Positions 2,776-25,816 of a DNA stretch of 64,000 nt are shown in pieces; the stretch's first letter is position 1, and each line of letters begins with the position of its first letter. The stretch is taken from assembly GCA_003216955.1 (NCBI GenBank), contig QCHZ01000001.1, positions 186,001 through 250,000 on the forward strand, written 5' to 3'. The notes beneath the pieces were generated by a model. It was not told the origin of the DNA, searched no databases, and saw only the letters and a list, made by a program, of their open reading frames with translations. The position numbers and the translations under genes are program-made. Origin of the DNA: Prochlorococcus sp. AG-402-I21 (lineage in GTDB: Bacteria; Cyanobacteriota; Cyanobacteriia; PCC-6307; Cyanobiaceae).

Positions 2776-2890
2776 TCCTATTCCATAAACTTTTGGGAAA
2801 ACTTCAGGGACAAAAAAAATGGCATAAAAACAGGCTTGAAAAACTATTCTAAGACTAATGCGGCGACAGGCTTCGAACCTGCGACCTAAT
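2776..2890. repeat. Most degraded tRNA-Pro attachment-site copy
   Basis: The segment carries GCGACAGGCTTCGAACCTGC followed by GACCTA, which matches the T-arm and 3' end of the tRNA-Pro gene at 25743-25816 with scattered changes. Left of it, 2831-2853 resembles the tRNA terminator flank (ACAGGCT...). Further left, TATTCCATAAACTTTTGGGA (from 2778) resembles TATTCCATATGACTTTTGGG at 19623, so the similarity to the 19.6-kb copy runs beyond the tRNA. I read it as the fossil left end of the oldest element at this tRNA. It is not a functional tRNA: no acceptor or D arm pairs. Confidence 0.7.
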
Positions 2891-4231: not shown

Positions 4232-4300
4232 AACAAGCTGGAGAACCTGTCTCTGGCTGATCGAATCAACAGGATTTGAACATGCGAGCTAGTGCTCACT
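4232..4300. repeat. Degraded tRNA-Pro attachment-site copy
   Basis: The segment CTGATCGAATCAACAGGATT plus TGAACATGCGAGCTAGTGCT aligns with the 3' end of tRNA-Pro at 25738-25784 (CTGATCGGGGCGACAGGATT...) with several substitutions. The preceding AACAAGCTGGAGAACCTGTC matches the tRNA terminator hairpin at 25714-25733. The decayed integrase begins two bases to the right. This repeats the layout at 19.7 kb, where an attachment copy is followed by a right-pointing integrase. Confidence 0.82.
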
Positions 4301-4302: not shown

Positions 4303-5551
4303 TTGGCTAAAACAGGTAATCAACCAAGTTGGGTAAAAGAATTTAGGAAATCTGTTAAAGCTTCTACCCCAAAAGGGTGGTTAGTCATGCAAGGAAAGAA
4401 AGAATCAACAAGGGTTCAAATTCGCAAGGATGGTAAAAAAATTGCAGCTATAACAATCCCATACGCATGGAAAGAATCAGATTAGCCTGATGCAATTTTA
4501 AGAATTAGATCAGCAGATAAGCTTATGAAAAATCAAACCAAAGATTAGATATAAAAGCTTGCTTCAATATTGCTCACACAGTTTCAAGCGAGACAGAAAT
4601 TAACTGGGAAGAATCAATCGAGGTTTATAGGGAATTTAAAAAAAATTGTGAAAAGATTCGACTTGGCGTAGCAAATATCACCCTGTCTTTAAGAATGTAA
4701 TCAAGGCCACTAGAAATACTTCCAAAGCACCTTTAAATGGGCCAACACTTTGCAAGGTTGCACTTAAGCAATGGCAACAAGGAACACCGATAAGAAGACA
4801 CATGCGCCTAGCCCTTTTTGGGTTTCTTCGGTTTTGTGTTCAGGAACAGCAGTTCGAGTCCACGTGGTTTCCCCCAGCCATAACAGATAAAGATTTAGTC
4901 ACTACTAAAAAGAGAGTTGGTTATCAATTAACTGATTCACAAATTCTCCGATTATTAGATTCTTTCCCAGTAAATGAAATTGGTAATAAATGGAGTTTTG
5001 CTTTTCAATGTATAGCTGTTTATGGCCTAAGACCTGAAGGCCTCCGAACCATCCACACCCGCAATGGTGGTGAAGAGATTTGGAATAATTACGAAAAATC
5101 GAGAGGTGGTAAGAAAGGAGAAAAAACAGAGGCTAGACGTTTATATCCTTTGCTGGTCCATGACATTGATGATCCCATTAACTGGCATCTAAAAGAACAA
5201 TTAGCAATATGTGAAAAGGAAGGTTTGAACCTACTTCCCCCACTTGGTAAAGAAGGACATGCTGACGATGCTTGTAGAACTTATTTATGTCGCAGAAAAT
5301 TTTGGGAGGCTATCACAAAAGAAGTTTCCAAGGAAAATCAAGAATTAACTAGTTACAGCTTTCGCCATAGATATGCCTACTGCGGTCACAATCGACCTAA
5401 AGCTGATGGAAGTTATAGAGCACCAAAACAAATAGCGGATGCGATGGGCCACACCCTGGGCACTCACCTTTTGAGCTATTCCAAATTCCAAATGAAAGAT
5501 CTAGCTAGTGCTTTTGATGAAACCTCACTTTTAGTAAAAGCAGCTGCTTAG
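4303..5551 (+). pseudogene. Decayed tyrosine recombinase (integrase)
   Basis: Three pieces match the intact integrase at 19907-21100. An N-terminal piece (4303-4485, WVKEFRKSVKAST) ends in a stop. A middle part (about 4600-4800) is split between frames and still shows NWEESIEVYREF and ALKQWQQGTP. A 249-aa C-terminal piece (4802-5551) holds the catalytic domain. That domain keeps VYGLRPEGL, YSFRHRY, AMGHTLGTH and a late Tyr (LLSYSKF), so the catalytic residues survive. The N-terminal arm-binding and core-binding regions are interrupted by a stop and frameshifts. It directly follows the degraded attachment copy. It was probably once the enzyme that integrated the older element. Confidence 0.85.
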
Positions 5552-7714: not shown

Positions 7715-7786
7715 TTTTTAAAATTCTTGGTAATCTCGAGGGAGAACCAACAAGTCCTGCGACTTCGACAAAAAAAATTTTATTTC

Positions 7787-8080
7787 ATGGATTTAAATAA
7801 AGCACTAAATCTCAACAGTTATGAATGGTGGAGAAACCATAGAAGAGTCGTTACTTTTGGTGGATTATTATTTCTATTCGGATGCTGGGTCAATCCTGTC
7901 ATTCAAGAATCAAGGAATAAAAATTCGTGTGTTCGTACATATTCTGAGCTTTATACCGTCCCTGAAGTTCTTGAAAAATTTAATGCGAAACAATTAGAAA
8001 AGTTTGGACTTGATACAAATGACTTTGCTAAAGCCTTGGCATATCAAACCTGTACGAGTCAAAAAGCTATTGGTAAGTAA
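7787..8080 (+). CDS. Hypothetical membrane-anchored protein
   Basis: I prefer the internal ATG at 7787 (MDLNKALNLN...), because the 20 residues upstream of it are basic and low quality. The resulting 97-aa protein has one membrane span (about residues 22-40), then an outward domain with two cysteines (SCVRTYSELY and QTCTS) that could form a disulfide. It directly precedes the membrane protein at 8081 with no gap, suggesting an operon. No family was recognised. Confidence 0.6.
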   Translation: MDLNKALNLNSYEWWRNHRRVVTFGGLLFLFGCWVNPVIQESRNKNSCVRTYSELYTVPEVLEKFNAKQLEKFGLDTNDFAKALAYQTCTSQKAIGK

Positions 8081-8473
8081 ATGAAAATAAAAACAATCCT
8101 AAAAACTGTTGGATCTCTTCACTTGTTATTGGGTGTACTGCTAATAAACATGTTGATTTTTTCTATCGATACCATTGCACCATCAGTATCAGCCGAAACA
8201 TTCTTATATATTAGAGGGACAGCAGATGTTGTTGCAGCAACAAATATAGGTATTGGCTTCTTATTAATAATTTCTAGTTCCATCAGAGATCACGAATCTG
8301 CCAAAAAAGTTTTACTAGGTGAATTGGTATTGATGCTTTGCCTCTTAATAGTTGCAGTATTCAATACTCTTAATGCAGGAGTCATTGTTGATGCTGGTCC
8401 ACCTCCACCGTTTTGGATTGTTCTAATTACAAACCCAGTTTTGTGTACTTATGGATTACTAAAAGGTAAATAA
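8081..8473 (+). CDS. Four-span membrane protein
   Basis: A 130-aa protein with about four hydrophobic segments (near residues 8-28, 50-66, 78-97 and 108-125) and a Pro-rich loop (GPPPPF). It is probably an inner-membrane protein of unknown role. Its ATG immediately follows the TAA of the preceding gene, so the two are likely co-expressed. Confidence 0.62.
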   Translation: MKIKTILKTVGSLHLLLGVLLINMLIFSIDTIAPSVSAETFLYIRGTADVVAATNIGIGFLLIISSSIRDHESAKKVLLGELVLMLCLLIVAVFNTLNAGVIVDAGPPPPFWIVLITNPVLCTYGLLKGK

Positions 8474-10474: not shown

Positions 10475-10768
10475 ATGATTTTTAATTTTAGAACAGTAAT
10501 TGAAGATTATTGTAGTAAAGGAAACCTTTCAGAGGAAGAAATTGATTTCTTAGAGAGAGAACATATTAAAACCATGAGTTCAATTTGTGAGACATCATCT
10601 CCATCAATTGCTCATTGGAATATATGCGAAGCTTGTAATCTTAAACAGAGAAGTTTCTGGATTTCTTGTAATGCGTCAATACTTGATAAGATTAGGCCTG
10701 TTAAGACTGGGAAGCAAAGAGCTCATAAATTATTTGATGCTCTTTGTCTCTATAAGCTTTTAAACTAA
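10475..10768 (+). CDS. Hypothetical soluble protein
   Basis: A 97-aa protein with an acidic, helical N-terminal third and several cysteines (SICETS, NICEACN, ISCNAS). The ICEACN pair could bind metal, but no known zinc-finger spacing is met. It lies about 180 bases upstream of the uptake operon. No family was recognised. Confidence 0.52.
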   Translation: MIFNFRTVIEDYCSKGNLSEEEIDFLEREHIKTMSSICETSSPSIAHWNICEACNLKQRSFWISCNASILDKIRPVKTGKQRAHKLFDALCLYKLLN

Positions 10769-10951: not shown

Positions 10952-11971
10952 GTGTCCTATCAGAAGTTTTTAAACTTATTTAGAGAAAAGAACAAATTTA
11001 ACGCCTTTCTTCTTTTAGCATTTATTTCTTTAGTCATAGTTCTGTCTTTAAGTAGAGGTTCGGTTGAATTAAGTAGTCATGAATTAATCAAAGCATTCTT
11101 GAGAGAAGGTGATTTAACTAATCAAATTATTTTTTGGGAACTCAGGCTCCCTAGATTAATTGCTTCTTTACTTGTTGGCTCGGCTTTAGGTATGTCTGGA
11201 GCTCTCCTACAAGGAATGCTAAGAAATGGGTTGGCAAGTCCTTACTTGCTCGGTATCTCTGCAGGTTCGGGGTTAGTAATTGTTCTGTTAATAAGCATGG
11301 GATTATGGCTCTCTTGGATCCCAATCGCTGCATGGATAGGAGCAATTATCACGACGTTAATTGTCTATCTTTTAGCAAAATCGGGGACTTCAATATCAGT
11401 TGAAAGATTGATTCTTGCAGGAGTTGCTCTAAGTAGCCTTTTTGGATCTATTCAGTCAATGCTTCTTCTGCAATCAGAAGATGGAAGAGTTCAAGCTGCT
11501 TTGACTTGGTTAATAGGTAGTCTTAATTCCAGAGGGTGGACTGAAATCAAGTTAGCTGGACCACCAATCATCTTTGCTTTAGTTGTGGGATTATTACTCT
11601 CAAGACATTTGAATTTATTAGGTTTGGGAGATGAATTATCTGTAGGTTTAGGAAATTCTTTATTTCGTTCAAGATGCTTAATTGGTGCATCTGCAACTCT
11701 GTTGGCTGCAAGCTCAGTTAGCGTTGGTGGCTTGATTGGATTTGTAGGTTTGATTGTCCCCCATGCCGTACGATTTTTATTTGGGACAGACTATAAAGTT
11801 GTTCTTCCATTCTCTGCTTTATTAGGTGCTTTAACACTTAGTTCAGCCGATTTGATTGCAAGATCAGGAACTATTGAATTGCCTGTTGGAATCATCACAT
11901 CATTATTAGGTGCTCCAATTTTTATAGTCTTATTGTATAAAAGACAAAAATCCTTAACTAGTCTGCGATAG
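10952..11971 (+). CDS. FecCD-family iron-chelate/heme ABC permease
   Basis: A 339-aa inner-membrane permease of the FecCD/BtuC family, which moves ferric-siderophores, heme or cobalamin with an ATPase. It has about ten membrane segments. Family signatures include RLPRLIASLLVGSALGMSGA near residues 66-85 and GLIGFVGLIVPHAVRF near residues 257-272. There is only one permease gene, so it presumably works as a BtuC-like homodimer. The start is GTG. The ATPase gene begins five bases after its stop, so the pair is co-transcribed. Confidence 0.93.
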   Translation: MSYQKFLNLFREKNKFNAFLLLAFISLVIVLSLSRGSVELSSHELIKAFLREGDLTNQIIFWELRLPRLIASLLVGSALGMSGALLQGMLRNGLASPYLLGISAGSGLVIVLLISMGLWLSWIPIAAWIGAIITTLIVYLLAKSGTSISVERLILAGVALSSLFGSIQSMLLLQSEDGRVQAALTWLIGSLNSRGWTEIKLAGPPIIFALVVGLLLSRHLNLLGLGDELSVGLGNSLFRSRCLIGASATLLAASSVSVGGLIGFVGLIVPHAVRFLFGTDYKVVLPFSALLGALTLSSADLIARSGTIELPVGIITSLLGAPIFIVLLYKRQKSLTSLR

Positions 11972-11976
11972 ACATA

Positions 11977-12753
11977 ATGACACTAATAACAAAAGATTTC
12001 TCTACCGGTTATGAAGAAAATAAAATCATTAAATCGATCAGTCTTTCATTGGAGGCATCTGAGTGGTTAGGGATTGTTGGAGCCAATGGATCAGGTAAAT
12101 CCACTTTCTTAAAAGGTATTAGCCGCATACTTGATGCACATACAGGTATTGCTTATTTAGATGGGCATGATATTCATCATTCTTCTACAAAAGAAATCGC
12201 AAAAAAGATCTCTGTATTACCTCAGCATCAGAGGTCTAATTTAACTCTTACTGTCTATGAATTGGTTTGCCTTGGACGCTCTCCTCATAAAAAATGGTGG
12301 GAACTCGAGCTTGATGAAAATGATCATTTAAAAGTTGAGAGATCCATTGAATTAACAGATATGACCGCTTTTAAGGATAAATCTGTTGATACATTATCTG
12401 GAGGGCAAAGGCAAAGAGCTTTCCTTTCTTTAGCTCTTGCTCAAGATGCAAAAACACTTTTATTGGATGAACCAACAACTTTTTTAGATCTTCGCTATCA
12501 ACTCCAATTCTTAGACCTACTTAAAAAAATAAATCAAGAACAAAAAATATCAATTATCACTGTTATTCATGACTTGAACTTGGCTGCTAGATATTGTGAT
12601 CGGATTGCAGTACTTAAAGATGGCGAATTATTAGCTATCAACAAACCAAGAGAAGTTCTTACTCATGAGCTTTTGAAAAATGCTTTTCAAGTTGAGACAT
12701 GCCAATTAGAAACACCTATTGGTCTACAAATCTGCACAATTAAATCTTCCTAA
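11977..12753 (+). CDS. FecE/FepC-type iron-chelate ABC transporter ATPase
   Basis: A 258-aa nucleotide-binding subunit. It shows Walker A GANGSGKST (residues 35-43), a Q-loop near LPQHQ, the ABC signature LSGGQRQRAFL, Walker B LLLDEPTTFLDL and the switch His (VIHDLN). Length and motif context fit FecE, FepC and BtuD proteins. It powers the permease encoded immediately upstream. It is separated by about 200 bases from the receptor gene, which has its own likely promoter. Confidence 0.95.
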   Translation: MTLITKDFSTGYEENKIIKSISLSLEASEWLGIVGANGSGKSTFLKGISRILDAHTGIAYLDGHDIHHSSTKEIAKKISVLPQHQRSNLTLTVYELVCLGRSPHKKWWELELDENDHLKVERSIELTDMTAFKDKSVDTLSGGQRQRAFLSLALAQDAKTLLLDEPTTFLDLRYQLQFLDLLKKINQEQKISIITVIHDLNLAARYCDRIAVLKDGELLAINKPREVLTHELLKNAFQVETCQLETPIGLQICTIKSS

Positions 12754-12864
12754 AATTTCATAATCAATTTATTCATAAACATAGAAGTATAGCTTTATAC
12801 CCGCAAGAGGATCTAATAGCACCTTTTTGCCTATGGATTACTAGAAAGAATCTTTTTACTTATT

Positions 12865-12896
12865 TACATGTATAGATCGATACTTTTTTGAAAAGT
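12865..12896. promoter_or_regulatory. Candidate regulatory sites upstream of TonB-dependent receptor
   Basis: Two palindromes are close together: TACATGTA at 12865-12872, and ACTTTT-TTG-AAAAGT at 12882-12896. The second ends 57 bases before the preferred GTG start of the receptor. AT-rich TATAAA and TATATA stretches follow at 12916 and 12928 and could serve as -10 elements. The sites could mediate iron-responsive control, by inference only. Confidence 0.35.
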
Positions 12897-12953
12897 CCTT
12901 GACTGCTATTGCCTCTATAAAAGTAGGTATATATCTTGTTGTGTGAGGCAAGG

Positions 12954-15179
12954 GTGAAATTTTTCCAGAAATTGTTGGTCGCTCCAGCAACCGCAGCTAT
13001 GCTTATGGCACCAACCTTAAATGGTTTTGCTGATGAGACAGCATCTGATAATACTTTAAAAATCTCAGTAACAGGAACTAGATCTCCTCGTGCTACAAAA
13101 GATGTTCCAGCTTCTGTAAAAGTCACTGATAAAAATGAAATTGATACACTGGGAATTAATGATTTAAGAGACTTATTTAAATACGATGCAGGTGTATCAA
13201 TAAAAAGTAATTCCACCGGTTATTTTAATAATTATGGACAAAACAGTATCAATATCAGGGGTATGGATGAAAATAGAGTTCTTATACAAAGAGACAATAT
13301 AAATCTTCCAAATAGTTATTCCTTTAGCTATCAGCTAGGAAGAGGCGAGTATGTAGACTTAAGTACTTTAAAGTCTGTAGAGGTTCTAAAAGGTCCTGCT
13401 TCTTCCCTTTATGGAAGTGATGCATTGGGTGGCTTGGTAAGTTATCAATCTCTCTATCCAGAAGATTTGCTTGGTGCCGATGAAACTTTTAAGATAGAAA
13501 TTCCTGTTAAATTTGATGGCAGTAGTAATCAAACATCAGGAACCACAAGGGTTGCTGTTAGAGATGATAATGGCGTGGAAGCGGTGCTAGTTACAACACT
13601 TATTTATGGAGAGGAGGATAACGTAAAAGCTGATGATAAATATATTGATGATAGTGAGATTACTAAAAAGAATATTTATACAAACATTGTGAAAAATATC
13701 GACGATTACAGCAGAATTAATTTTATATATGAAAATGTTGATACTAAGAGAGATACTAATCAAGCAAAAGCTAGGTTGAGTTCTTCTTATTCAAGTATTG
13801 AAGAAGATGTTGATATAAATAGATGGATGGGGCAATTAGGGTATGAGTATGAGAATCCAAGTTCAGCAAAATTATTTGATTATGCAAAGGTAAATTTGTA
13901 TGTGCAAGATGCAGAATGGAATGATGATTCCAAAGTTGAATCTCCTGCAGGGTTTAGCAGAGGTAGATATTCAGCAGCAAAGACGGTAGTCAATGACTAT
14001 AGGTACGACGATGAAAGTAAGGGTTTTAATATTCAACTGAGAAGTGATTCAAACAGTTCTGGAGTTAATCATAAGTTTACTTATGGTGTGGACTATTCAA
14101 CTACTTTTAATACTAGACCTAGAAAAAAAACAACTACTCAGTCTGGTACAACCACAATAGAGAACATAAAAGATACAGCAGATGCAGATACAACTAAGTA
14201 TGGATTTTACTTACAGGATGCGGTCACTTTTGACAAGGCAGACAGATTAGAATTAATAGCAGGAATTAGATATGACAAATATGAAATTGATGCTCAGAGT
14301 GATGCTGCATATAAAAATACTGCAGATGGAGTAGGTGCTGTTAACCCAGCTGTTGATTTAGAAAATTCTACAGTTAATCCATCACTGGCTTTGATCTATA
14401 ATTTATCCCCTGAGTTGTCAGCTTTTGGTAAGTATTCAACTGCGTTTAGGTCTCCAACTCACTCTGAATTAAATACAGCTCATGGAAATAGATTTTATGG
14501 ATATTATTATCTTAGTAACCCTGACTTAAAACCAGAAACTAGTGAAAATTATGAGTTTGGTCTTAAGGGTGATTATTCAAAACTTGATTTTTCTTTGGTT
14601 AGTTTCATAAGTAAATATGATGATTTAATTGATGTTGAACTTACAAGCACTGGCACAGATTGTATTGCTTTAATTGGAAGACCATGCACCGTTTACAAGC
14701 CCAGTAACGTAGAGGAGGCTGAGATATGGGGAATTGAATTAAATTCAGAATATAATTTTAATGAAGATAAGACTGGGTTCGCTCTCATCTCTTCACTGGC
14801 TTACAGTTATGGTGATGATACCTCAGGTACAGAAGACAAAGAATTAACTTCGATTGAGCCATTTAAAGCAATATTAGGATTAAGATATACTGATTCTGAA
14901 AATAAATGGAGCACAGAATTAACTAATACATACGTTGGCGACGCAAGAACTACAGATGCATTGGATGATAACCCCTCTCAAAGTTATTCAGTATTGGATT
15001 TAACTAGTGTTTTCAATGTTAACGAAAGATTATCAGTTGATGTAGGGATTTTTAATTTAAACGATACTAGATACTTTAATTATTCAACTGTAAAAGCACA
15101 AAGTAAAAATAGTGCAGATGTTAATAGATTTTCTGAACCTGGCAGAAATATAAAAGCTGGATTTAAATTTATTTTCTAA
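12954..15179 (+). CDS. TonB-dependent outer-membrane receptor (siderophore/heme type)
   Basis: A 741-aa receptor. I chose the GTG at 12954 because it starts the signal peptide (KFFQKLLVAPATAAM..., cleavage near GFA) and follows a GAGG sequence; an upstream TTG (12936) would add six residues. A TonB-box-like TLKISVTGTR opens the mature protein. The plug domain has VEVLKGPASSLYGSDALGG. The barrel ends with NIKAGFKFIF and a terminal Phe, as outer-membrane proteins do. The plug is closest in style to the heme/hemoglobin/transferrin receptor class. FRSP (from residue 498) and NPDL (from residue 522) resemble the FRAP and NPNL boxes of heme receptors, though such boxes are not exclusive to them. 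The ligand is thus siderophore or heme, unresolved. Confidence 0.94.
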   Translation: MKFFQKLLVAPATAAMLMAPTLNGFADETASDNTLKISVTGTRSPRATKDVPASVKVTDKNEIDTLGINDLRDLFKYDAGVSIKSNSTGYFNNYGQNSINIRGMDENRVLIQRDNINLPNSYSFSYQLGRGEYVDLSTLKSVEVLKGPASSLYGSDALGGLVSYQSLYPEDLLGADETFKIEIPVKFDGSSNQTSGTTRVAVRDDNGVEAVLVTTLIYGEEDNVKADDKYIDDSEITKKNIYTNIVKNIDDYSRINFIYENVDTKRDTNQAKARLSSSYSSIEEDVDINRWMGQLGYEYENPSSAKLFDYAKVNLYVQDAEWNDDSKVESPAGFSRGRYSAAKTVVNDYRYDDESKGFNIQLRSDSNSSGVNHKFTYGVDYSTTFNTRPRKKTTTQSGTTTIENIKDTADADTTKYGFYLQDAVTFDKADRLELIAGIRYDKYEIDAQSDAAYKNTADGVGAVNPAVDLENSTVNPSLALIYNLSPELSAFGKYSTAFRSPTHSELNTAHGNRFYGYYYLSNPDLKPETSENYEFGLKGDYSKLDFSLVSFISKYDDLIDVELTSTGTDCIALIGRPCTVYKPSNVEEAEIWGIELNSEYNFNEDKTGFALISSLAYSYGDDTSGTEDKELTSIEPFKAILGLRYTDSENKWSTELTNTYVGDARTTDALDDNPSQSYSVLDLTSVFNVNERLSVDVGIFNLNDTRYFNYSTVKAQSKNSADVNRFSEPGRNIKAGFKFIF

Positions 15180-15221
15180 ATATTTTAATATTTAAAATTT
15201 ATATTAATAAGTTATTCAATA

Positions 15222-16094
15222 ATGAAAGTATTAAATTTTACTATTGGTATATCATTTCTACTTTGTGGTTGTGGTGAACTAAATCAATCATCTCGAAATA
15301 AAGAGATTTTGAATACATCAGTAAAGATTGAGAGGGTAGTAACTTTAACCTCATTAAGTACTGATATTGTGAGTAAACTTTCTAGTAAAAAACTTGTAGC
15401 AATTCCAGGGAGTTCCTTGTTTAAGAATAATGATGAATTTGTTGATTTACCAAGAATCAGTCAAGGTAGAACTCCTCCTAACTTAGAGAAAATAGTTTCT
15501 TTAAAACCAGATTTAGTAATTGGCACAAAAGGTTTTCATGACAAAATACTAGGCAGACTTAAAGATATTAATATCCAAACAGTTTCCTATGAATTAAGTG
15601 ATTGGAATAGCCTGGAAAATACTATTAATTTAATTTCTACTAAATTAGGTATAAATAATTTTGGTAAATCTAATGAACTAATTAACACTAATTTGAAAGA
15701 ATGTGTTATTGCCAATGAACAAGATAAAAAGCCTAGTGTAGTTATTCTTGCTAGTATAAAACCTATTCTCTCTCCTAACTCAAAAAGTTGGGCTGGAAAT
15801 CTTCTTCAAAGATTTGGTATAAATAGTCTAACTAAAGATCTTGATTCAAAGAGTGAGTTTCGTGGTTACGTAAATTTATCACCAGAGTGGTTAGTTAAAG
15901 AAGATCCTGATAACTTAATTATTATCCAAACAAGGCCTAAACAATACGTTGACTTTGAAAAATCTAAGCCATTTTCTAATTTGAAAGCAGTTAAATCTGA
16001 TCAAGTTTATCGTTTTAATTACTATGGGCTGATAAATGCAGGTAGCTTAGAGAGTATTAATAGTGCATGTTTAAAACTTAGAAAAATCTTTTAA
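15222..16094 (+). CDS. Iron-chelate/heme ABC substrate-binding lipoprotein
   Basis: A 290-aa periplasmic binding protein of the FecB/BtuF (TroA-like) class. It has an N-terminal lipoprotein signal with lipobox L14-C15-G16-C17. Further motifs are VVTLTSLSTDIV and NLEKIVSLKPDLVIG, typical of the two-lobe fold with a connecting helix. It lies 42 bases after the receptor gene on the same strand and is probably co-transcribed with it. It hands the ligand to the 10952/11977 transporter. It is slightly shorter than many family members but appears complete. Confidence 0.9.
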   Translation: MKVLNFTIGISFLLCGCGELNQSSRNKEILNTSVKIERVVTLTSLSTDIVSKLSSKKLVAIPGSSLFKNNDEFVDLPRISQGRTPPNLEKIVSLKPDLVIGTKGFHDKILGRLKDINIQTVSYELSDWNSLENTINLISTKLGINNFGKSNELINTNLKECVIANEQDKKPSVVILASIKPILSPNSKSWAGNLLQRFGINSLTKDLDSKSEFRGYVNLSPEWLVKEDPDNLIIIQTRPKQYVDFEKSKPFSNLKAVKSDQVYRFNYYGLINAGSLESINSACLKLRKIF

Positions 16095-16098
16095 CTCC

Positions 16099-16773
16099 TT
16101 ATCTTATTTTTAAATCGTATTCAATATTTATTGAAGTTTCCTCCTCTAAGGGGTAAAAAGTAGAATGAATTGCGGCTTTTTTAGCAGCTTTATCAATTGA
16201 TTCATGCCCACTGAAACTTATTAACTCTGCCTTAAAGACTTTTCCCTTTTTGTTAATCCATACTTTTACTATAGGAGTTCCCTCTGCTCCTCTTCTTAAT
16301 GCAATAGGAGGATATATAGGACTAATACATTTTAAGCATGTAACTTTTAGTGTTCCTTTGCCCTTTAATGAACCCTTTTCTGGCTCATTATTTTTTACAC
16401 CTTTTATAAATCCGCTCCCTTTTTCCTCTTTTGACATAGGTTGATTTATTAAATTACTTTTATCTTTCTTTAGTTGAATTTTTTTTTCAATTATCTTGTT
16501 ATCTTCAAATGATTCTTTCTCATCTAAAGGATTTTTATTCTCAATCTCATTTTTTAATTCTTCTTTTATTGAAGGTTTTTTAATTAATCTTTTGCTTCTT
16601 TCTGTGGCTTCCCCAAATCCTGCCTCTGATAAATCATCAACCAGCTCTATTGGAATAATTTTCTCACCTAAAGTAACGTCTCTCTCTTTTTCAATAAATA
16701 AAAACAAGAAGGAGTGAATCATTACTGACAGAAGGATGTAATAATTGATTCTATTTGTTTTGATTCTATTCAT
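16099..16773 (-). CDS. tonB: TonB energy-transducing protein
   Basis: A 224-aa protein with the TonB layout. There is an N-terminal membrane anchor (about residues 9-27), then a long Lys/Glu-rich periplasm-spanning linker (about 45-140). The C-terminal TonB domain (about 148-224) contains PIYPPIALRRGAEGTPIVKV. The linker is charged rather than Pro-rich, unlike E. coli TonB. Two Cys (CLKC) sit just ahead of the domain. It is divergent from exbB across a 74-base shared promoter region and convergent with the binding-protein gene, whose stop is only four bases away. Confidence 0.92.
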   Translation of the reverse strand: MNRIKTNRINYYILLSVMIHSFLFLFIEKERDVTLGEKIIPIELVDDLSEAGFGEATERSKRLIKKPSIKEELKNEIENKNPLDEKESFEDNKIIEKKIQLKKDKSNLINQPMSKEEKGSGFIKGVKNNEPEKGSLKGKGTLKVTCLKCISPIYPPIALRRGAEGTPIVKVWINKKGKVFKAELISFSGHESIDKAAKKAAIHSTFYPLEEETSINIEYDLKIR

Positions 16774-16847
16774 TTTTCTAGGAAACTATTAATTCAATTA
16801 GCTTTCTTTTATTACTATTATGATTGTTATATTCATTATAAGTCTTC

Positions 16848-17477
16848 TTGTTTGATCTTTTCAAATCAGGCGGCATAGTTATGTGGCCACTATTATTAAT
16901 TTCAATTACTTCTTTAGCATGCATATTTGAAAGAATTGCATACTGGAAAGATGTAATAAAAAAAAATGATAGTAAGCTAATGATTACGGTTGAAAAATAT
17001 TCAACTATTTCTTCTGTCGATTTTATAAAAAAAAATGAGATTTCTTCAATTCCATTAGAAAAAGTATTGTTAGATTCTTTGAAAATTATTGATAGAAGTC
17101 TTCTAAATGATAAAAATACTATTGATCTAAAATTAGCATTAGAAATATCAATTCAATCAATTCAATCTGAATTTGGAAAGTTTAGTAATTTATTCTCTAC
17201 AATTATTACTGTTTCCCCTTTACTTGGACTCTTAGGAACAGTTTTGGGGCTTATAAATTCTTTTTCATTTATAAAACTTGGTGAAACTGGTGTTAATGCT
17301 CAAGAAGTTACTGGTGGCATTAGTGAGGCATTGATTTCTACAGCAACTGGTTTAATTATTGCTATTATCACACTTATATTTTCTAACTATTTTAATAGTT
17401 TATGGAGGAAACAAAATTCTATTCTAAATCAGTATTGTGGTAGATTTGAAATGCTATATAGAACAAATAAATTATAA
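16848..17477 (+). CDS. exbB: ExbB/TolQ-family proton channel subunit
   Basis: A 209-aa inner-membrane protein with spans near residues 11-27, 118-140 and 155-180. It carries the family stretch TVSPLLGLLGTVLGLINSF, followed by GGISEALISTATGLIIAI. With ExbD it forms the proton-driven motor that energises TonB. The start is TTG with no ATG alternative nearby. The exbD gene follows two bases after its stop, so the pair is co-translated. The placement opposite tonB completes the energy module for the receptor at 12954. Confidence 0.93.
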   Translation: MFDLFKSGGIVMWPLLLISITSLACIFERIAYWKDVIKKNDSKLMITVEKYSTISSVDFIKKNEISSIPLEKVLLDSLKIIDRSLLNDKNTIDLKLALEISIQSIQSEFGKFSNLFSTIITVSPLLGLLGTVLGLINSFSFIKLGETGVNAQEVTGGISEALISTATGLIIAIITLIFSNYFNSLWRKQNSILNQYCGRFEMLYRTNKL

Positions 17478-17479
17478 TA

Positions 17480-17884
17480 ATGACCTATTTCAAAGAAGAT
17501 ATTAATAACAAGAATAAAATTGAAATTTTGCCCATGATAGATATTATCTTTTCTATTTTAGCTTTTCTTATTATTTCTAGTCTTTATTTAACGCGAGTTG
17601 AGACTATATCTGTTGATTTGCCTAAGGCAAGTAATTCGATCAAGCAGAATAATAAATTCGTGAATATATCTATTGATAAGTCTGGTAATTTATTTATAAA
17701 TAAGAAAAGTATAAAATTTCAGGACTTGAAAGATAATTTAGTTAATTTGGTTAATGAAAATAAGAATTTAGTTGTTCTCAATGCAGATAAAAATATTTCT
17801 CATGGTTATGTAATTAGTGTTTTAGACGTGCTTAGGAGTATTGATGGCTTAAAAATAGGACTTTCGACTAAGTCAATAGACTAA
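17480..17884 (+). CDS. exbD: ExbD/TolR-family motor subunit
   Basis: A 134-aa protein with a short cytoplasmic N-terminus and one membrane helix (about residues 18-40) bearing the essential Asp (Asp21 in LPMIDIIF). A periplasmic domain with NADKNISHGYVISVLD follows. It is the last gene of the uptake cluster; a 34-base gap follows before a convergent small gene. Family and operon context make the assignment secure. Confidence 0.92.
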   Translation: MTYFKEDINNKNKIEILPMIDIIFSILAFLIISSLYLTRVETISVDLPKASNSIKQNNKFVNISIDKSGNLFINKKSIKFQDLKDNLVNLVNENKNLVVLNADKNISHGYVISVLDVLRSIDGLKIGLSTKSID

Positions 17885-18321: not shown

Positions 18322-18939
18322 TTAATAAAGCGTTTCAGGGTATGGATCACCTTCACTTCCATTAAGATTATTGGAGATTCCTTCCTTCTCAATTTTCTTT
18401 ATTTCCTTAAGTGTTCTTTTTTGTCCCATACCTAAACCAGTAAGCATTGGTAGTTGTGTCATTAACTTTTTAGGCTGTTTCCCATCAGTAAATCTCAAAC
18501 TTATAAATGTTTCCTCACCCTCAACGTCATAACCATTTACAACTAGTTGATAATCATGTTTTTTGGGATCCGATACTAAAAAGCCAATAACTCCAAAGGC
18601 AACTGTTGCTGCAACTTTTCCAGATACGTCAGTCTTAGATTCTCCAGATAGAGACCAACTTGTAACCCTAGATGTAGGGATAGATTGATATGGACCAGTT
18701 ATTTTTTGACTGTTGGCTACAAAATCCATTGTGCACTTAGGAATTACAGGATCTGGTTCATCAGGATCAGGGAAACGTGGTTTCGGGAACGTAGCTTCAT
18801 GTATTTCTCTTTTCTTTTCATCACACGCAGCTTTGTAAATCTCGGCTTTTGTTGAAAGGGTGGTCAATAATCCTATCGGACTTAAAAAAGAAGTTGTCAA
18901 TAATAGTGATAAAGATCTTTTGCTTGAGGTGTATTTCAT
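18322..18939 (-). CDS. Exported protein, tandem paralogue A
   Basis: A 205-aa protein with an N-terminal hydrophobic signal (about residues 10-30). It is a clear paralogue of its upstream neighbour at 18966-19478. Shared blocks are GPYQSIPTSRVTSW versus SPYGSIPTARVTNW, KKHDYQLVVNGYD versus KKHDYNFLINGYD, and LGMGQKRTLKEI versus LGMGQTRTAKEI. A central hydrophobic stretch (VAATVAFGVIGFL) may be a membrane insertion. It is probably secreted or envelope-located. The function is unknown. Confidence 0.72.
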   Translation of the reverse strand: MKYTSSKRSLSLLLTTSFLSPIGLLTTLSTKAEIYKAACDEKKREIHEATFPKPRFPDPDEPDPVIPKCTMDFVANSQKITGPYQSIPTSRVTSWSLSGESKTDVSGKVAATVAFGVIGFLVSDPKKHDYQLVVNGYDVEGEETFISLRFTDGKQPKKLMTQLPMLTGLGMGQKRTLKEIKKIEKEGISNNLNGSEGDPYPETLY

Positions 18940-18965
18940 AATAAAAAAATAGTAAAAAGTGATTT

Positions 18966-19478
18966 TTAAAAAGGTTTAAATCTACCAAGTCTTATTTTTT
19001 CTTTGCCTTTAGATTCTCGACCTCTTATTTCTTTTGCAGTTCTTGTTTGGCCCATTCCTAATTGAGTTGTCATTTGTAATTCATTTATCAATCTTTTCGC
19101 AGGTTTATCATTCTTAAAAGAAAATTGCATTGATGTTTTTTTACCTTCTGCGTCATACCCATTGATTAAAAAATTGTAATCATGTTTTTTCGCTAAAAAA
19201 CCTAACAAGCCTATTGGGCCTAAAAATATTGTTGTTGCAACTCCTGTCCCTACTGCAGTGCTTGAATCACCACCACCTCCCCAATTAGTCACGCGAGCAG
19301 TTGGTATTGATCCATAGGGTGAAGTTATAACTTCAGGAGAAACAAAGATATTGCATTTCATACCTCCACAAATTGCGTTGTAATTACCTGCAAAAGCAGT
19401 AGAGGAATGAGTAATAAAAGAGAAAAATAGGGCAGCCTTTAAAAAAGCTCTATTACCCAAAGGGACTAAAGGTTTCAT
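18966..19478 (-). CDS. Exported protein, tandem paralogue B
   Basis: A 170-aa protein with a signal peptide (about residues 10-30, cleavage near AFA) and the same conserved core as the 18322-18939 product, including a Gly-rich hydrophobic stretch and KKHDY. It is followed 26 bases later by its paralogue, so the two arose by tandem duplication and are probably co-expressed. It lies at the right end of the older element, next to the attachment copy at 19.7 kb. Confidence 0.72.
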   Translation of the reverse strand: MKPLVPLGNRAFLKAALFFSFITHSSTAFAGNYNAICGGMKCNIFVSPEVITSPYGSIPTARVTNWGGGGDSSTAVGTGVATTIFLGPIGLLGFLAKKHDYNFLINGYDAEGKKTSMQFSFKNDKPAKRLINELQMTTQLGMGQTRTAKEIRGRESKGKEKIRLGRFKPF

Positions 19479-19620: not shown

Positions 19621-19750
19621 CTTATTCCATATGACTTTTGGGATAAATTTAGGATAAAGCCGTTTTCCCATAAAAAAAGCAACGGCTGGGAACCGTTGCT
19701 ATTACTGATCGGGGCGACAGGATTCGAACCTGCGACCTAGTGCTCCCAAA
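19621..19750. repeat. tRNA-Pro 3'-end copy (attachment site, left end of young element)
   Basis: Bases 19704-19750 are identical over 47 bp to 25738-25784, covering the 3' half of tRNA-Pro up to the anticodon loop plus four bases beyond. The flank at 19621-19660 also resembles the region left of the oldest copy (2776 onward). The tRNA portion here lacks its 5' half and cannot be functional. This is the displaced attL left by integration at the tRNA gene. Confidence 0.92.
19678..19700 (-). terminator. Intrinsic terminator next to the partial tRNA
   Basis: AGCAACGG pairs perfectly with CCGTTGCT around a 7-base loop. On the minus strand it is followed by a run of seven Ts. It occupies the position of the tRNA-Pro terminator. 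It probably ended the tRNA transcript before the young element inserted. Confidence 0.75.
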
Positions 19751-19856
19751 ACGAACGGTCAAATCACTGCCATTACTAAGACTAAAGTCATGAACTAAGG
19801 TTATAACTAATATATAGAGATCATTAGAAGTCGTTAAAAGCCGCAATAAGTTGACT

Positions 19857-19876
19857 TTTGCACACAGTTTGCACAC
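19857..19876. promoter_or_regulatory. Candidate integrase arm-type sites, left end
   Basis: Two direct copies of TTTGCACAC (19857-19865 and 19868-19876) lie between the attachment site and the integrase start. Matching copies occur near the right end (25683-25691, and inverted at 25623-25631). Spacing and placement suit arm-type binding sites for the recombinase or an excision factor. Confidence 0.5.
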
Positions 19877-19906
19877 AATGAAGGCATCAAAAGACCTAGT
19901 GCTTAA

Positions 19907-21100
19907 GTGCCACTAACAACACGCACACAAACTTGGGTGAAGTTCTTTAGGGAACAAGTCAATGAATCAACAGCAGGGCAATTCAAAGTTTTAGACAGTC
20001 GCGGCAAGATGCGATTGCAATATCGACCGAATGGAGAAAAAGCTCAATCGTTGATGTTGCCCTTTGATTTCAATAAGTCAGAAACGATAAAAGCACTGCC
20101 AAGGATTCAACAGATCTTTAAAACTTTTGTTCAAGGGAAAGGGAAAAAGACTCTTCTACAGGCCGCTTCGATTACAGAAGCTTCTAGTTCAAAGCATCAA
20201 ATCCCATGGACAGAATTAATCAATGAATATCGAAAGTTTGTTCCTAATGCAGGAGAAAAAACATGGAAGAAAAGTTATGTCCCTGTCTTAACCAAAACTG
20301 GATTGTTGATGCAGAAGGGAAAAGGAAAACCCCTCAATGGTGAAGGGTTAATGATGAAAGCTCTGACTCAATGGGAACAAGGAACAAGATCAAGAGTTAT
20401 CGCTCGTCGTTCTCTTAAAGGTTTTCTTAATTGGGCTGTAATGCGTGGAAAGTTACCAGCGGCTTATGCACCACCTGCATCTATTCCAGAAATAAAAAAG
20501 CCAAAGAGGGTTGGTTTTGCTTTAACTGATTCTCAAATACTTCGCTTATTAGAAGACGTAAGTGATGAACGATGGAAATTCGCAATTCAACTTTGCGCAG
20601 TTTATGGATTACGACCAGAAGAACTTCGATATTTAAGAATCAAAGACGGTGCAGAAGGAAAAGAACTTTGGACGATTTACCAGAAAAGTATGGGAGGAAC
20701 AAAAGGAGATAAGACAAAACCTCGTCGCCTGCATCCTTTACTTATTGAAGATATGGATGGAAATACGATTGATTGGAAGCTTCAGCAAAGATTGGAAATT
20801 GGTGAATCTCTTCCACCTTTAGGTCAAAAAGGAAAAGGAGGCGAAGCTCTAAGAACTCACCTCCGAAGGAGAAAAGTATGGAATGTTCTAAGTAAGGAGG
20901 CAGAAATGATAGGTGAAGTGTTAGTCCCTTATACCTTTAGACATCGTTATGCAAAGGCTTCTCATGCAGCTGGTGTTCCTCTACCTAACATCGCCGCTGC
21001 TATGGGTCACACCACAGAAGTGCATCATCAAAGTTATGCAAGATTCATTCCAGACGGTACGGCTGATTTGTATGCCAAGCGCAATGCGAGGGTCGCATAA
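19907..21100 (+). CDS. Tyrosine recombinase (integrase) of the tRNA-Pro element
   Basis: A 397-aa site-specific recombinase. It has an N-terminal arm/core-binding region (about residues 1-185) and a catalytic domain with Arg236 (YGLRPEEL), box II YTFRHRY with Arg345 (the first position is Tyr instead of the common His), His368 (AMGHTT) and the nucleophile Tyr377 (HHQSYARF). The start is GTG. It lies about 150 bases from the attachment copy and catalyses integration into and excision from tRNA-Pro. A decayed homologue sits at 4303-5551 in the same arrangement. It appears fully intact. Confidence 0.94.
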   Translation: MPLTTRTQTWVKFFREQVNESTAGQFKVLDSRGKMRLQYRPNGEKAQSLMLPFDFNKSETIKALPRIQQIFKTFVQGKGKKTLLQAASITEASSSKHQIPWTELINEYRKFVPNAGEKTWKKSYVPVLTKTGLLMQKGKGKPLNGEGLMMKALTQWEQGTRSRVIARRSLKGFLNWAVMRGKLPAAYAPPASIPEIKKPKRVGFALTDSQILRLLEDVSDERWKFAIQLCAVYGLRPEELRYLRIKDGAEGKELWTIYQKSMGGTKGDKTKPRRLHPLLIEDMDGNTIDWKLQQRLEIGESLPPLGQKGKGGEALRTHLRRRKVWNVLSKEAEMIGEVLVPYTFRHRYAKASHAAGVPLPNIAAAMGHTTEVHHQSYARFIPDGTADLYAKRNARVA

Positions 21101-21102
21101 AT

Positions 21103-21243
21103 ATGGAAAAAAGACTCAAGTCACTTAAATACTTTGCTCCTCTAGTTCAGATAGCTCTCTGCCCTATAACTATTCTGTTTATATGGACTGTGTTTACAGG
21201 TCCTGAAGCAATCCCTGTAGTTAGTGAAGAATTAGTTAGTTAG
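21103..21243 (+). CDS. Single-span micro-protein (46 aa)
   Basis: The frame reads MEKRLKSLKYFAP, then one hydrophobic helix (about residues 13-32), then an acidic tail. It starts two bases after the integrase stop, so it is probably co-transcribed with it. The size and place recall small excision or accessory factors, but the membrane helix argues against DNA binding. No family was recognised. Confidence 0.5.
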   Translation: MEKRLKSLKYFAPLVQIALCPITILFIWTVFTGPEAIPVVSEELVS

Positions 21244-21274
21244 AGGCATGATGGGTTAGTTAACCCCTAAATAA

Positions 21275-21490
21275 TTGATGACTGACAAGAGAAAAGGGAC
21301 GTGGCAACCAACAGATCAGCAAGTCGATAAAATAATTCTTCCCGCCATGCAAGGGATAGCACAGCAATGCGCTGGTTATATTAATGAACTTCAATGTCCT
21401 CCTGAATTTATTGCAGTCATGCTTAGGGATGTTGCCGATGCATTCGAGAACCCAGCGCCCGAAGGCGCAAGTAGTTGTGATTGTTGTTAA
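21275..21490 (+). CDS. Small conserved protein with LxCPxxFxxxLxxxAD motif
   Basis: A 71-aa helical protein. Its core (NELQCPPEFIAVMLRDVADAF) pairs with that of the protein at 23748 (EDLGCPRSFAEGLLKSIADNF). It ends in a Cys-rich tail (SSCDCC). A weaker match is seen to the 38-aa proteins at 2242 and 6217 (PPNMIAEILRDYAD). It seems to be a short member of a small-protein family spread over the island. The function is unknown. Confidence 0.6.
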   Translation: MMTDKRKGTWQPTDQQVDKIILPAMQGIAQQCAGYINELQCPPEFIAVMLRDVADAFENPAPEGASSCDCC

Positions 21491-21581
21491 TTAATTAACT
21501 TCTCTTCAACACAAAACTCTTACTTGCAAATGTTTTAGAAGTAATTTCCATACAAATCTATTAAGGACAGCTAATTATCTA

Positions 21582-21728
21582 ATGACTAATTCAGTCGAAT
21601 CAATTGTTATCTCTTTAGGGAATGAACCTGCAGAGGTCCTTGGTTTCAAAACAGAAGAACAAATAGAAACAGCCTTAATCCCCTTAATGGCAGAAGTTTT
21701 TAACAATGAGACCCTTACTGTTAAATAA
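21582..21728 (+). CDS. Hypothetical 48-aa protein
   Basis: Begins MTNSVESIVISLG and is acidic and soluble, with an amphipathic helix in its second half (TEEQIETALIPLMAEVF). It has an ATG start in the young element and the same strand as its neighbours. No family was recognised. Confidence 0.45.
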   Translation: MTNSVESIVISLGNEPAEVLGFKTEEQIETALIPLMAEVFNNETLTVK

Positions 21729-21869
21729 ATCAATTCACGCGGAATAAGACGAAACTAAATCACTTTATAAATTATCCAAGGTCCTGGTATAGACACAAAG
21801 AGTATTAACTCCAATTTCAAGATCAAGATTACCAGCTATTGAATAAGTAATAGATAAGTTCTTACAAGA

Positions 21870-22064
21870 ATGAATGCTGATAAGCAGCTAAAAGACATAT
21901 TGCACATGGCAGTAAAGAATGCAGTTTCAAGAATGAAAATCGTAAGAAGTCCTGCTGATCGTCGCTGTTTATTCCATGAATACAAGGAATGGCTAGGAGA
22001 AAGTATTAATGATGAAGTTTTAGCAATTCCTACAGAGATAATACAAAACGAACTAGATAAATAA
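21870..22064 (+). CDS. Hypothetical 64-aa protein
   Basis: A small charged, helical protein starting MNADKQLKDILHMAV. A central RSPADRRCLFHEY stretch is rich in Arg and aromatic residues. It is element cargo with no recognised domain and no membrane segment. Confidence 0.5.
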   Translation: MNADKQLKDILHMAVKNAVSRMKIVRSPADRRCLFHEYKEWLGESINDEVLAIPTEIIQNELDK

Positions 22065-22127
22065 AGTCAACTCAAAAGGAGTCAACAATACTTTAGGGTC
22101 AAGTCATAAGAAGATTAGGCTTTTAAT

Positions 22128-22409
22128 TTGCCATTAAAAAATAAAAGCAAGGGAATAGTTCCATGGGATTATCAAATTGATGATGAAAACTATCAAAAAG
22201 AGCCTTGGATTCTAAAGAAAGGAAAGGAATATGTAACTATTGAAAAAGACAACAATAATAAAGGTTTTTTCCAGCTTCAAAAGGATGAAGAGAAACGTCT
22301 ATCTCTTAGCGCTTCTCAAGCTAAATTGACATATCATCAACTACTTGAGTTTGGATATAAGCTACGAAAACCTAAGATTGAATTTGAAAATCAAAGTTCA
22401 GAAGAATGA
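22128..22409 (+). CDS. Hypothetical 93-aa protein
   Basis: A TTG-initiated soluble protein, Lys/Glu-rich, with aromatic beta-like segments (KEYVTIEKD, GFFQLQKDEE) and a helical C-terminal half. Its 3' end overlaps the minus-strand DUF2811-like gene by 19 bases, tail to tail. No family was recognised. Confidence 0.52.
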   Translation: MPLKNKSKGIVPWDYQIDDENYQKEPWILKKGKEYVTIEKDNNNKGFFQLQKDEEKRLSLSASQAKLTYHQLLEFGYKLRKPKIEFENQSSEE

Positions 22410-22585
22410 TTAAGAAGATATTTCAAATAGCTTTCTCTAAGATGTTTAACTTGACATCCATTCTGAAAGAGGAAATCTGTTAAAGCAGAATTTATAAATT
22501 TTTTTCTATCAAGGTCAGAACTTGATTCAATGAAATCCTTCATCTCTGTGAAAAGAACCTCAGGGATCTCTGTCTCTAAGCTCAT
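22391..22585 (-). CDS. DUF2811-like small protein, downstream copy
   Basis: A 64-aa protein. I place its start at the ATG at 22585, because that ATG overlaps the upstream stop in a classic ATGA junction and gives the family-like N-terminus MSLETEIPEVLF; the open frame runs nine codons further up. The pattern (E)IPEVLFTEMKDFI...LDRKKFINSALTDFLFQNG matches the small cyanobacterial DUF2811 family as I know it. It is clearly paralogous to the gene just upstream. It is possibly a small DNA-binding regulator, but this is inference. Confidence 0.68.
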   Translation of the reverse strand: MSLETEIPEVLFTEMKDFIESSSDLDRKKFINSALTDFLFQNGCQVKHLRESYLKYLLNHSSEL

Positions 22586-22872
22586 ATGCTCCCACTCATT
22601 GATCTTTTGCAAAACATACTTTGAGTGTAAAAACGTCTCATCTCTAGTGATGTGACCCCTTTTTCCAAAAGGTAACCAGAGATCGCCGCTTGCATTAATC
22701 GATGTTGATCCCAGTTTGGATGGTCATCTATATATTTTCTCATTGCCTCATTTAGATAGGCAGGTACATCTTCTATAAAACTAACTATCGACTCTTTTTG
22801 ATCATTAATAGAAATACTGTTTTGATGATCTATTTTTTTTGATTGAATCGTTTCTAGCACAGATTTTTGCAT
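22582..22872 (-). CDS. DUF2811-like small protein, upstream copy
   Basis: A 96-aa protein with a polar 30-residue N-terminal extension, then the same domain as its neighbour: EDVPAYLNEAMRKYID...NWDQHRLMQAAISGYLLEKG. Tandem duplication with translational coupling (ATGA overlap) suggests the two act together, perhaps as a heteromer. It faces the 875-bp stretch without a clear gene, which may hold its promoter. The function is unknown. Confidence 0.68.
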   Translation of the reverse strand: MQKSVLETIQSKKIDHQNSISINDQKESIVSFIEDVPAYLNEAMRKYIDDHPNWDQHRLMQAAISGYLLEKGVTSLEMRRFYTQSMFCKRSMSGSI

Positions 22873-23747
22873 TAAATATTTTTTTGTTGAGATACCACTA
22901 TCAAGGTTTTTGAGGACAAGTCAAGGAAAAAGAAAACTCAAATCTCATGGGGTCTCATCAAGAGATCCACTGGGAGGGAAGGGTGTCAATAGAAAAATTA
23001 AATATAAAGACTAGATTGCCTATATCTTCACAAATAAAGCATCAATTTGAGGGTTTTCCACTGAAGTACAGCAGCAAAGGCATTAAAATTTGTTCCCTGT
23101 GGAAAAAATGTTGAAAACAAATGATTTACTCTTAAGAAAGTGCTTAAAAGTTGATTGATTAGATTATCTTATGAATGATATTAGATATCTTTTAAGACTC
23201 ATTAAAGAGATTAATAAGGACAAATCAACATTAGCTGACTTATTTTTTATTCAATCTTTTATGAATATGTAAGTCCAGCAAAAGGATCTGCCATTGAATA
23301 TTCTTTCTTTAAATCACTCTGAGTCACTTAGTTTTTAAGAAAACAGCTCCATTTAAAAAATTAAAAACTCTTCTTGTAAAATTTAAATCAAAAACTAAAA
23401 AATGGCTTTAAGCAATTGACCTTTCAACTTTTATGCTGCGAGTTTCAAATGGAATTTTTCTTGTTTTTGATTTATTTAAAAGTTGAGAGCCAAAACCTTA
23501 AATTGTGGAAAAGTATCTAATTATACAAAAAATAATTATGGAATGTAAACACTTTCAGTGCAAGTCTAAGGAATGATTCCATCGCATTAATTTGTTAATG
23601 AGATAAGATCATTGAATCAAATAAAGTCAATAGAGAAATAATTCTTTCAAATCTCCTTGAGAAGTATCATTTATTGTTTTATTTTCCAGAAAGCTTGGTA
23701 GGGTCGCTTTCAAAATCATGTTCATCTATTTCGAATAGCTTATACAA
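22873..23747. other. Long stretch without a clear gene, with DnaA-box-like sites
   Basis: There is no convincing gene in 875 bases; a 33-aa frame at 23171-23272 is the only candidate. It contains two exact TGTGGAAAA sites (23098-23106 and 23504-23512), which are reverse complements of the cyanobacterial DnaA box TTTTCCACA. A near match, TTTTCCACT, lies at 23054-23062, all amid AT-rich DNA. It could be a replication origin for the excised element, or a regulatory region for the flanking divergent genes. Confidence 0.45.
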
Positions 23748-24206
23748 ATGACAGAAGACTGGAATACGACTGATGAGCTAAAGAAAGACATTATTACAGC
23801 CGTTTATAAGGACATAAATGATCAAATAGAAGAAATGGTTGAGGATCTTGGTTGTCCTCGAAGTTTTGCAGAAGGATTATTGAAATCTATTGCAGACAAC
23901 TTTAAAGATGGAACGACAGTCGGCAAGACTGAATCCTCATATTCTTCTCGTCATGCTTCAACACCAGAGCATGAGATAGGTGCACAAGAAATAGTGATCA
24001 AGAATGAGAGAGAAGTTAGGAAAGCCTCCTCTGAGTTGATGAAAGATTTCAATAAAAAGATTGAGGTTATTGAAAACAACGATACACAAAGTTCTTTATA
24101 TTCCTCTCGACATCTCTCAACTCAAAAAGAAGAAGAAGGAGCTGAAGCAATCGTTATTAAGAACGAAGTAAAAATTAGGGAAGAGATGAAAAAGGAGAAA
24201 ATATAA
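23748..24206 (+). CDS. Protein with N-terminal CPxxFAxxL motif and internal repeat
   Basis: A 152-aa hydrophilic protein. Residues 1-55 resemble the 21275-21490 product (EDLGCPRSFAEGLLKSIADNF). The rest holds two copies of a unit of about 34 residues: SSRHASTPEHEIGAQEIVIK and SSRHLSTQKEEEGAEAIVIK, each followed by NE and charged helix. It has no signal peptide or membrane segment. The repeats suggest a binding or coiled region. It is cargo of the young element and of unknown function. Confidence 0.62.
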   Translation: MTEDWNTTDELKKDIITAVYKDINDQIEEMVEDLGCPRSFAEGLLKSIADNFKDGTTVGKTESSYSSRHASTPEHEIGAQEIVIKNEREVRKASSELMKDFNKKIEVIENNDTQSSLYSSRHLSTQKEEEGAEAIVIKNEVKIREEMKKEKI

Positions 24207-24263
24207 AAAAAATAGCAATAGTGAAATAGCTCTATTTTCTAATGATGTTTCTACTTTGTAATG

Positions 24264-25691: not shown

Positions 25692-25713
25692 AAGTAAAAT
25701 TTGCCATTAAAAA

Positions 25714-25733: not shown

Positions 25734-25737
25734 TCTG

Positions 25738-25784
25738 ACTGATCGGGGCGACAGGATTCGAACCTGCGACCTAGTGCTCCCAAA
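25738..25784. repeat. tRNA-Pro attachment site, right end (47-bp direct repeat)
   Basis: Identical over 47 bases to 19704-19750. It spans from five bases past the tRNA 3' end to the anticodon loop. The intact tRNA here is the regenerated gene after integration. Confidence 0.92.
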
Positions 25785-25816
25785 GCACCCGCGCTACCAA
25801 GCTGCGCCACGCCCCG
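25743..25816 (-). tRNA. tRNA-Pro (anticodon UGG)
   Basis: A complete cloverleaf. The acceptor stem CGGGGCG pairs with CGCCCCG, the D arm GCGC/GCGC is regular, the anticodon loop TTTGGGA gives UGG, and the T arm has GGTTCGAATCC. It is 74 bases including the discriminator A; CCA is not encoded. It is the integration target for the elements on its 3' side, whose left ends carry its 3'-half fragments. UGG can read most Pro codons, so disrupting it would be costly. This fits the restoration of the gene by each insertion. Confidence 0.96.

Follow-up and report, generated by a model that had tools for sequence, protein, structure and literature searches.

A seven-gene cluster for TonB-dependent uptake occupies positions 10952-17884 of a 64,000-nt stretch of Prochlorococcus sp. 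AG-402-I21 (contig QCHZ01000001.1 of assembly GCA_003216955.1, positions 186,001-250,000; the whole stretch is called the window, and its genome G000). The cluster is very probably an accessory cargo of a tRNA-Pro insertion hotspot, which spreads as a block, has also travelled by means of a second kind of island, and undergoes exchange of its outer-membrane receptor. Comparisons covered 41 genomes of the genus, 17 of which are at least 90% complete, and a family set of 400 genomes; the genus group of these genomes is one that we infer to be LLI.

The uptake cluster

The seven genes are all intact open frames, each scoring well above the Pfam cut-offs (model and value in brackets):

10952..11971, plus strand: FecCD-family inner-membrane permease (PF01032, 2.8e-89)
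11977..12753, plus strand: ABC ATPase, FecE/HmuV-like (PF00005, 4.9e-30; NCBIfam models below cut-offs)
12936..15179, plus strand: TonB-dependent outer-membrane receptor, class A (barrel PF00593, 1.1e-58; Plug PF07715, 3e-23; above the TIGR01786 and TIGR01785 cut-offs)
15222..16094, plus strand: substrate-binding lipoprotein (PF01497, Peripla_BP_2, 2.6e-23)
16099..16773, minus strand: TonB (PF03544, TonB_C, 1.5e-11)
16848..17477, plus strand: ExbB (PF01618, 1e-28)
17480..17884, plus strand: ExbD (PF02472, 3.7e-25)

This gene content is the one given by the first-pass annotation, which was made from the sequence of the window alone. The tonB gene is divergent from exbB, and a whole-genome search identified the receptor as the sole TonB-receptor barrel of the genome. 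In PMC9122953 such a cluster is recognized by at least five listed families adjoining a TonB-dependent receptor; here all six partners are present. The receptor was found in 8 of the 41 genus genomes (4 of the 17 that are at least 90% complete) and in 17 of the 400 family genomes.

The receptor frame starts with TTG at 12936, but translation probably begins at 12954, where a GTG (codon 7) gives a signal peptide of more typical form. As for a Fur box, the best candidate (16822-16840, 5/19 mismatches) was no better than chance matches elsewhere and was rejected.

The tRNA-Pro island

The cluster lies about 8 kb left of an intact tRNA-Pro gene, between two of the three partial copies of that gene, all of which are direct repeats of its 3′ half. 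The elements that define the island are the following:

25743..25816, minus strand: intact tRNA-Pro(tgg), the integration target (ARAGORN, Rfam)
19704..19750, minus strand: right partial tRNA-Pro copy, boundary of the cargo element and a younger element (47/47 bases, E 7e-22)
4244..4297, minus strand: left partial tRNA-Pro copy, the other boundary of the cargo element (85% over 54 bases, E 6e-7)
2862..2888, minus strand: short partial tRNA-Pro copy, an old attachment-site scar (26/27, blastn-short E about 2e-7)
4327..5551, plus strand: decayed tyrosine recombinase (open frame 4802-5551)
19907..21100, plus strand: intact tyrosine recombinase of the younger element (PF00589, 3.9e-7; phrog_1 integrase, 7.2e-23)

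Thus, the copies at 4244-4297 and 19704-19750 bear out the proposal that the cluster is carried in a tRNA-bounded segment between attachment-site copies. In the recombinase of this cargo element, the N-terminal half is interrupted by in-frame stop codons and frameshifts; the G005 ortholog, also located left of the cluster, is intact, with 415 aa and 90% identity in the C-terminal part. The cargo element carrying the cluster looks no longer self-mobile, while the younger neighbouring element (19704-25816) has retained an intact integrase. Core synteny resumes left of the window (at about 183.6 kb in G000) and right of the tRNA; between these flanks, cluster-free strains (G006, for example) carry different content.

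Insertion at the tRNA 3′ end bounded by partial tRNA copies is found here and likewise in G005 and G017, and the distal attachment copy has a tyrosine recombinase next to it, decayed in the cargo element and undamaged in the younger one; both are features of tycheposons (reportedly Hackl 2023). Most partial tRNA copies have a tyrosine recombinase on their right, most plainly so in G005, whose copies at 538167, 583970 and 605777 each have one within about 200 bases. This is the pattern expected from successive insertion at the tRNA end, the youngest element adjoining the intact tRNA. The hotspot was probably built by successive tyrosine-recombinase elements, of tycheposon type to judge by tRNA boundaries and recombinase position; each element would insert at the tRNA 3′ end, restore the tRNA, displace the older elements and leave partial tRNA copies behind.

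In the relatives, the cluster is located in the tRNA-Pro island of G004 and G005 as well as of G000; it adjoins the intact tRNA-Pro in G004, and it is flanked by partial tRNA-Pro copies in G005 (538104 and 566359) and G017 (64331 and 81893). On the basis of shared neighbours, the clusters of G027 and G037 are probably contained in the same kind of island; the contig of G039 is too short to place its cluster. In G004, G005, G017, G027 and G037 a reversed C-terminal recombinase fragment, related to the 19907-21100 gene, is found about 0.6-0.7 kb past exbD; it is not there in the window, and it represents a shared scar of an older rearrangement. In G005, whose genome is complete, exbD (C1:564045-564470) is interrupted by an in-frame TAA and, further on, by a frameshift; this strain may have a broken energy module or a borrowed ExbD.

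Transfer of the whole cluster and a second integration site

Divergence was compared at fourfold-degenerate sites, the backbone being the cluster minus the receptor and core genes being the reference. The clusters of G004 and G026 form one 8.9 kb tract of 96.8% identity, whose limits are about 40 bases beyond exbD and 1.9 kb before the permease. Their fourfold differences are 28/523 in the backbone and 5/306 in the receptor, versus 216/875 (25%) in core genes (backbone versus core, p 2e-17). Since this divergence is far below that of the core and the two clusters occupy different chromosomal sites, the block moved as a unit, the entire cluster having been transferred recently. Cluster divergence is also below that of the core for several other genome pairs. 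The backbone of the window strain differs from that of G005 by 0.183 (core 0.268, p 0.0016) and from that of G004 by 0.197 (core 0.214, p 0.54).

In G026, whose draft is 66% complete, the cluster is not on the contig of the tRNA-Pro (C13) but on C16, where it follows core genes named from their sequence (Rieske protein, cytochrome f and others up to ispD and fabG). A 627-residue large serine recombinase (C16:11244-13127; PF00239, PF07508) starts 62 bases past the fabG stop codon, and the cluster follows 1.6 kb beyond it. Synteny through the end of fabG is uninterrupted in G004, G005 and G006, so the site is normally empty; the same serine recombinase is joined to fabG in G010 (C62:4796-5689), and remnants are found near fabG in G003 and G018. 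The 3′ end of fabG is a second insertion hotspot in the genus, beside the tRNA sites. Apart from its place next to the G026 cluster, a dienelactone-hydrolase gene was found, among the genomes searched, only in the tRNA-Pro islands of two strains, G003 and G004. A fixed core location of the cluster, the finding that would have spoken against its acquisition as cargo, is ruled out by G026. Most strains lack the cluster, and it has no fixed place.

Exchange of the receptor inside the block

Among the genes of the cluster the receptor diverges most, with 36-99% identity within the genus. Sliding comparison of the window with G004, G005 and G026 gave high DNA identities in the permease (about 90-98%) and, for the most part, in the ATPase (80-97%), then a fall to about 50% over 12964-15336 and a return to about 95% in the remaining lipoprotein; DNA flanking the drop is 92-98% identical. 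The exchanged cassette (12964..15336, defined by this identity drop) comprises the receptor and the N-terminal signal/linker part of the lipoprotein; its edges lie just inside the receptor 5′ end and in that signal/linker part. Correspondingly, between the window and G004 or G005 the receptors are 41-42% identical, the FecCD proteins 96-98% and residues 76-290 of the lipoprotein 92-94% (91-94% with G026 included). Fourfold differences are 68/100 in the receptor, near saturation, versus 63/319 in the backbone (p 1e-18), which shows replacement, as opposed to fast protein evolution; relaxed selection was rejected as the cause of the divergence, as fourfold sites jump too, and with sharp edges.

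The gene trees give the same indication. That of FecCD separates G004, G026, G017 and G037 from G000, G005 and G027, whereas that of the receptor separates G004, G005 and G026 from G000, G039, G017 and G037, and each tree rejects the groupings of the other (approximately unbiased, AU, test, p below 3e-4). In G027 (draft 88% complete) FecCD and the ATPase are 96% and 93% identical, while the receptor, lipoprotein, TonB, ExbB and ExbD are 36-49% identical; conserved DNA is present on both sides of the replaced module, namely the permease and ATPase genes before it and the integrase fragment after it. One transporter backbone is thus combined with at least three receptor classes, and to judge from these comparisons the receptor can be replaced on its own. 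An exchange of the receptor between G000 and G039 had little support (AU p 0.03 with exbB, 0.18 with the ATPase) and is not claimed.

Proposed mode of spread and alternative explanations

From the families of its proteins, the system would take up a ligand through the receptor, powered by TonB-ExbB-ExbD, and pass it to the lipoprotein for import by the permease and ATPase. Three routes probably contribute to its spread within the genus. The whole block moves together with tRNA-Pro elements; at least one lineage has it in another kind of island, which bears a large serine recombinase next to the 3′ end of fabG; and homologous recombination would swap either the receptor gene or all genes from receptor to ExbD, with the inner-membrane transporter left in place. 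The chances are about even that the cluster is, in this full sense, a modular cassette, with a stable inner-membrane transporter, receptors exchanged by recombination, and two unrelated integration systems carrying the whole at different sites. If this is true, populations would keep a shared pool of receptor types for different foreign iron chelates or phage environments, without a siderophore of their own.

Several points weigh against a spreading cargo. Neither an excision product nor a transfer was observed; no relative of the receptor or permease was found in the viral contigs searched, and the integrase of the window has no relative in phage records or viral contigs, so carriage by a phage or satellite was dismissed. 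A chimeric join between 13127 and 14672 is possible in G026, given the incompleteness of that draft; the junction of fabG with the recombinase is itself confirmed in G010. In the window strain, where backbone divergence from G004 equals that of the core, recent import is unsupported, and the cluster may equally well have resided there for long. An ancestral presence of the cluster at the tRNA-Pro locus of the genus, followed by loss in most strains, with the attachment-site scars being incidental, would account for this closeness to the core, for the location of the cluster at the same island in G000, G004, G005 and G017, and for the neighbours shared by several strains, namely a small upstream gene and the reversed integrase fragment downstream of exbD. 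It is, however, quite improbable: the cluster is present in just 8 of 41 genomes, its divergence is below that of the core for several pairs and far below it for G004-G026, and the nearly identical copy of G026 is at another site with a recombinase of a different class, so that for G004 and G026 ancestry is already contradicted. The first-pass claim that the system is acquired as one cargo block therefore holds in part: the cluster is accessory, lies in a tRNA-Pro hotspot and has moved whole at least once, between G004 and G026; on the other side, a recent transfer into this strain finds no support, the integrase of the cargo is broken, and a single block is too simple a description, as the receptor, or five of the seven genes in G027, have been replaced between conserved flanks.

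The selective reason for the exchange of receptors on a mobile block could be the use of different ligands or the escape from receptor-dependent phages or bacteriocins. That escape explains the diversity with the transported ligand unchanged is a tentative alternative, somewhat less probable than its opposite; it agrees with the conservation of lipoprotein residues 76-290 between the window and G004 or G005 in spite of the divergence of their receptors, and with the mosaic distribution of FpvA types, which has been attributed to bacteriocins (PMC2777410). However, no phage is known to use this receptor, and in G027 the lipoprotein changes along with the receptor, which points to a change of ligand.

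The transported substrate

The substrate is most likely a ferric chelate. Import of heme or a heme protein in place of a siderophore, the heme being opened by the cell's own heme oxygenase, is rather unlikely, even though the sequence affiliations of the receptor are of the heme type. Indeed, the window receptor scores above the curated NCBIfam cut-offs for hemoglobin/transferrin (TIGR01786, 334.3 versus 323.75) and heme receptors (TIGR01785, 320.3 versus 316.85) and below that for siderophore receptors (TIGR01783, 124.7 versus 223.5 bits); its best solved relative is PhuR (7e-58); and each of the 17 picocyanobacterial receptors matches the heme models, whose best E-values are far better than those of the siderophore model. 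The best model for the lipoprotein is IsdE, below its cut-off. On the other hand, the axial plug histidine of ShuA and PhuR, the closest solved relatives by sequence, is missing in 17 of 17 receptors; a histidine between FRAP and NPNL is present in only three of them (G000, G039 and G302); and the methionine and histidine ligands of IsdE are not conserved in the lipoprotein, for which IsdE-type heme ligation was consequently discarded.

Heme oxygenase is expected in these cells from phycobilin synthesis. The gene is outside the cluster; of 13 genomes tested, 12 have it at another place, and strains without the cluster are among them; thus its absence from the cluster decides nothing, and its presence in the cell is no positive evidence for heme. 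PMC9122953 favours a siderophore, among other reasons for the lack of a heme oxygenase gene in the cluster.

Relation to known systems

A siderophore uptake cluster of picocyanobacteria has already been published (Hogle 2022, PMC9122953), and fecDCAB-tonB-exbBD corresponds to Pro-eCAG_015 (Dore 2023, PMC10119275); it is reported from a minority of Prochlorococcus, most often LLI, so that the mention of such clusters in an LLI subset by the first-pass annotation repeats what these papers contain. The same seven families are found together in the window. Differently from the window cluster, which lies in a tRNA element, the published one is not assigned to a tRNA element in the accessible text of either paper, and PMC9122953 has no mention of tRNA, integrase or mobile; moreover, PMC9122953 takes the receptor as a conserved marker, whereas here the receptor is the most divergent gene, and site and recombinase also switch.

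The tRNA-bounded cargo islands of Prochlorococcus known as tycheposons are summarised in PMC10872708. The island of the window is likewise tRNA-bounded, with a tyrosine recombinase and a nutrient-acquisition cargo; it differs in that the recombinase of the cargo element has decayed and that one relative of the cargo (G026) is in an island with a serine recombinase. The window recombinase gives a distant Pfam/PHROG integrase match.

The receptor classes of the cluster resemble the FpvA pyoverdine receptor types, which form a mosaic over Pseudomonas clonal groups and for which bacteriocin pressure has been proposed (PMC2777410). However, a Pseudomonas cell makes the cognate siderophore, while picocyanobacteria have no reported biosynthesis, according to PMC9122953, and the cluster is itself mobile cargo.

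A known cluster is therefore found on a known kind of island, and what is added are the two integration systems and the independently replaceable receptor; no description of receptor exchange or of a second integration site for the picocyanobacterial cluster was found in the literature searched, which did not cover subscription papers, including the original tycheposon paper. Two known things, the iron-uptake cluster and the tRNA-bounded cargo islands, are hereby joined, and the trait that spreads proves not to be a single fixed one. Since the marker used for metagenome surveys (PMC9122953) is the most variable part, surveys may undercount the cluster, and the iron source may differ from one carrier to another. 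With a receptor of heme-type affiliation, what these cells import is again in question.

Other features of the island

Further genes of the island recur in the relatives:

10475..10768, plus strand: small gene immediately 5′ of the cluster, common to G005 (94%) and G027 (89%)
7727..8473, plus strand: two small island genes, recurring near the cluster or tRNA-Pro in G017 and G026 (93-94%)

Between exbD and the right attachment copy (18322-19478), two tandem paralogous proteins that look secreted are encoded; they are 48% identical to each other, have no Pfam match, and distant relatives (about 25%) recur in the islands of G004, G005 and G017. The genes of the younger element at 21294-24803 recur at other places of the G004 and G005 tRNA-Pro islands with 92-95% DNA identity, inverted in G004, and represent a separate mobile module without known families.

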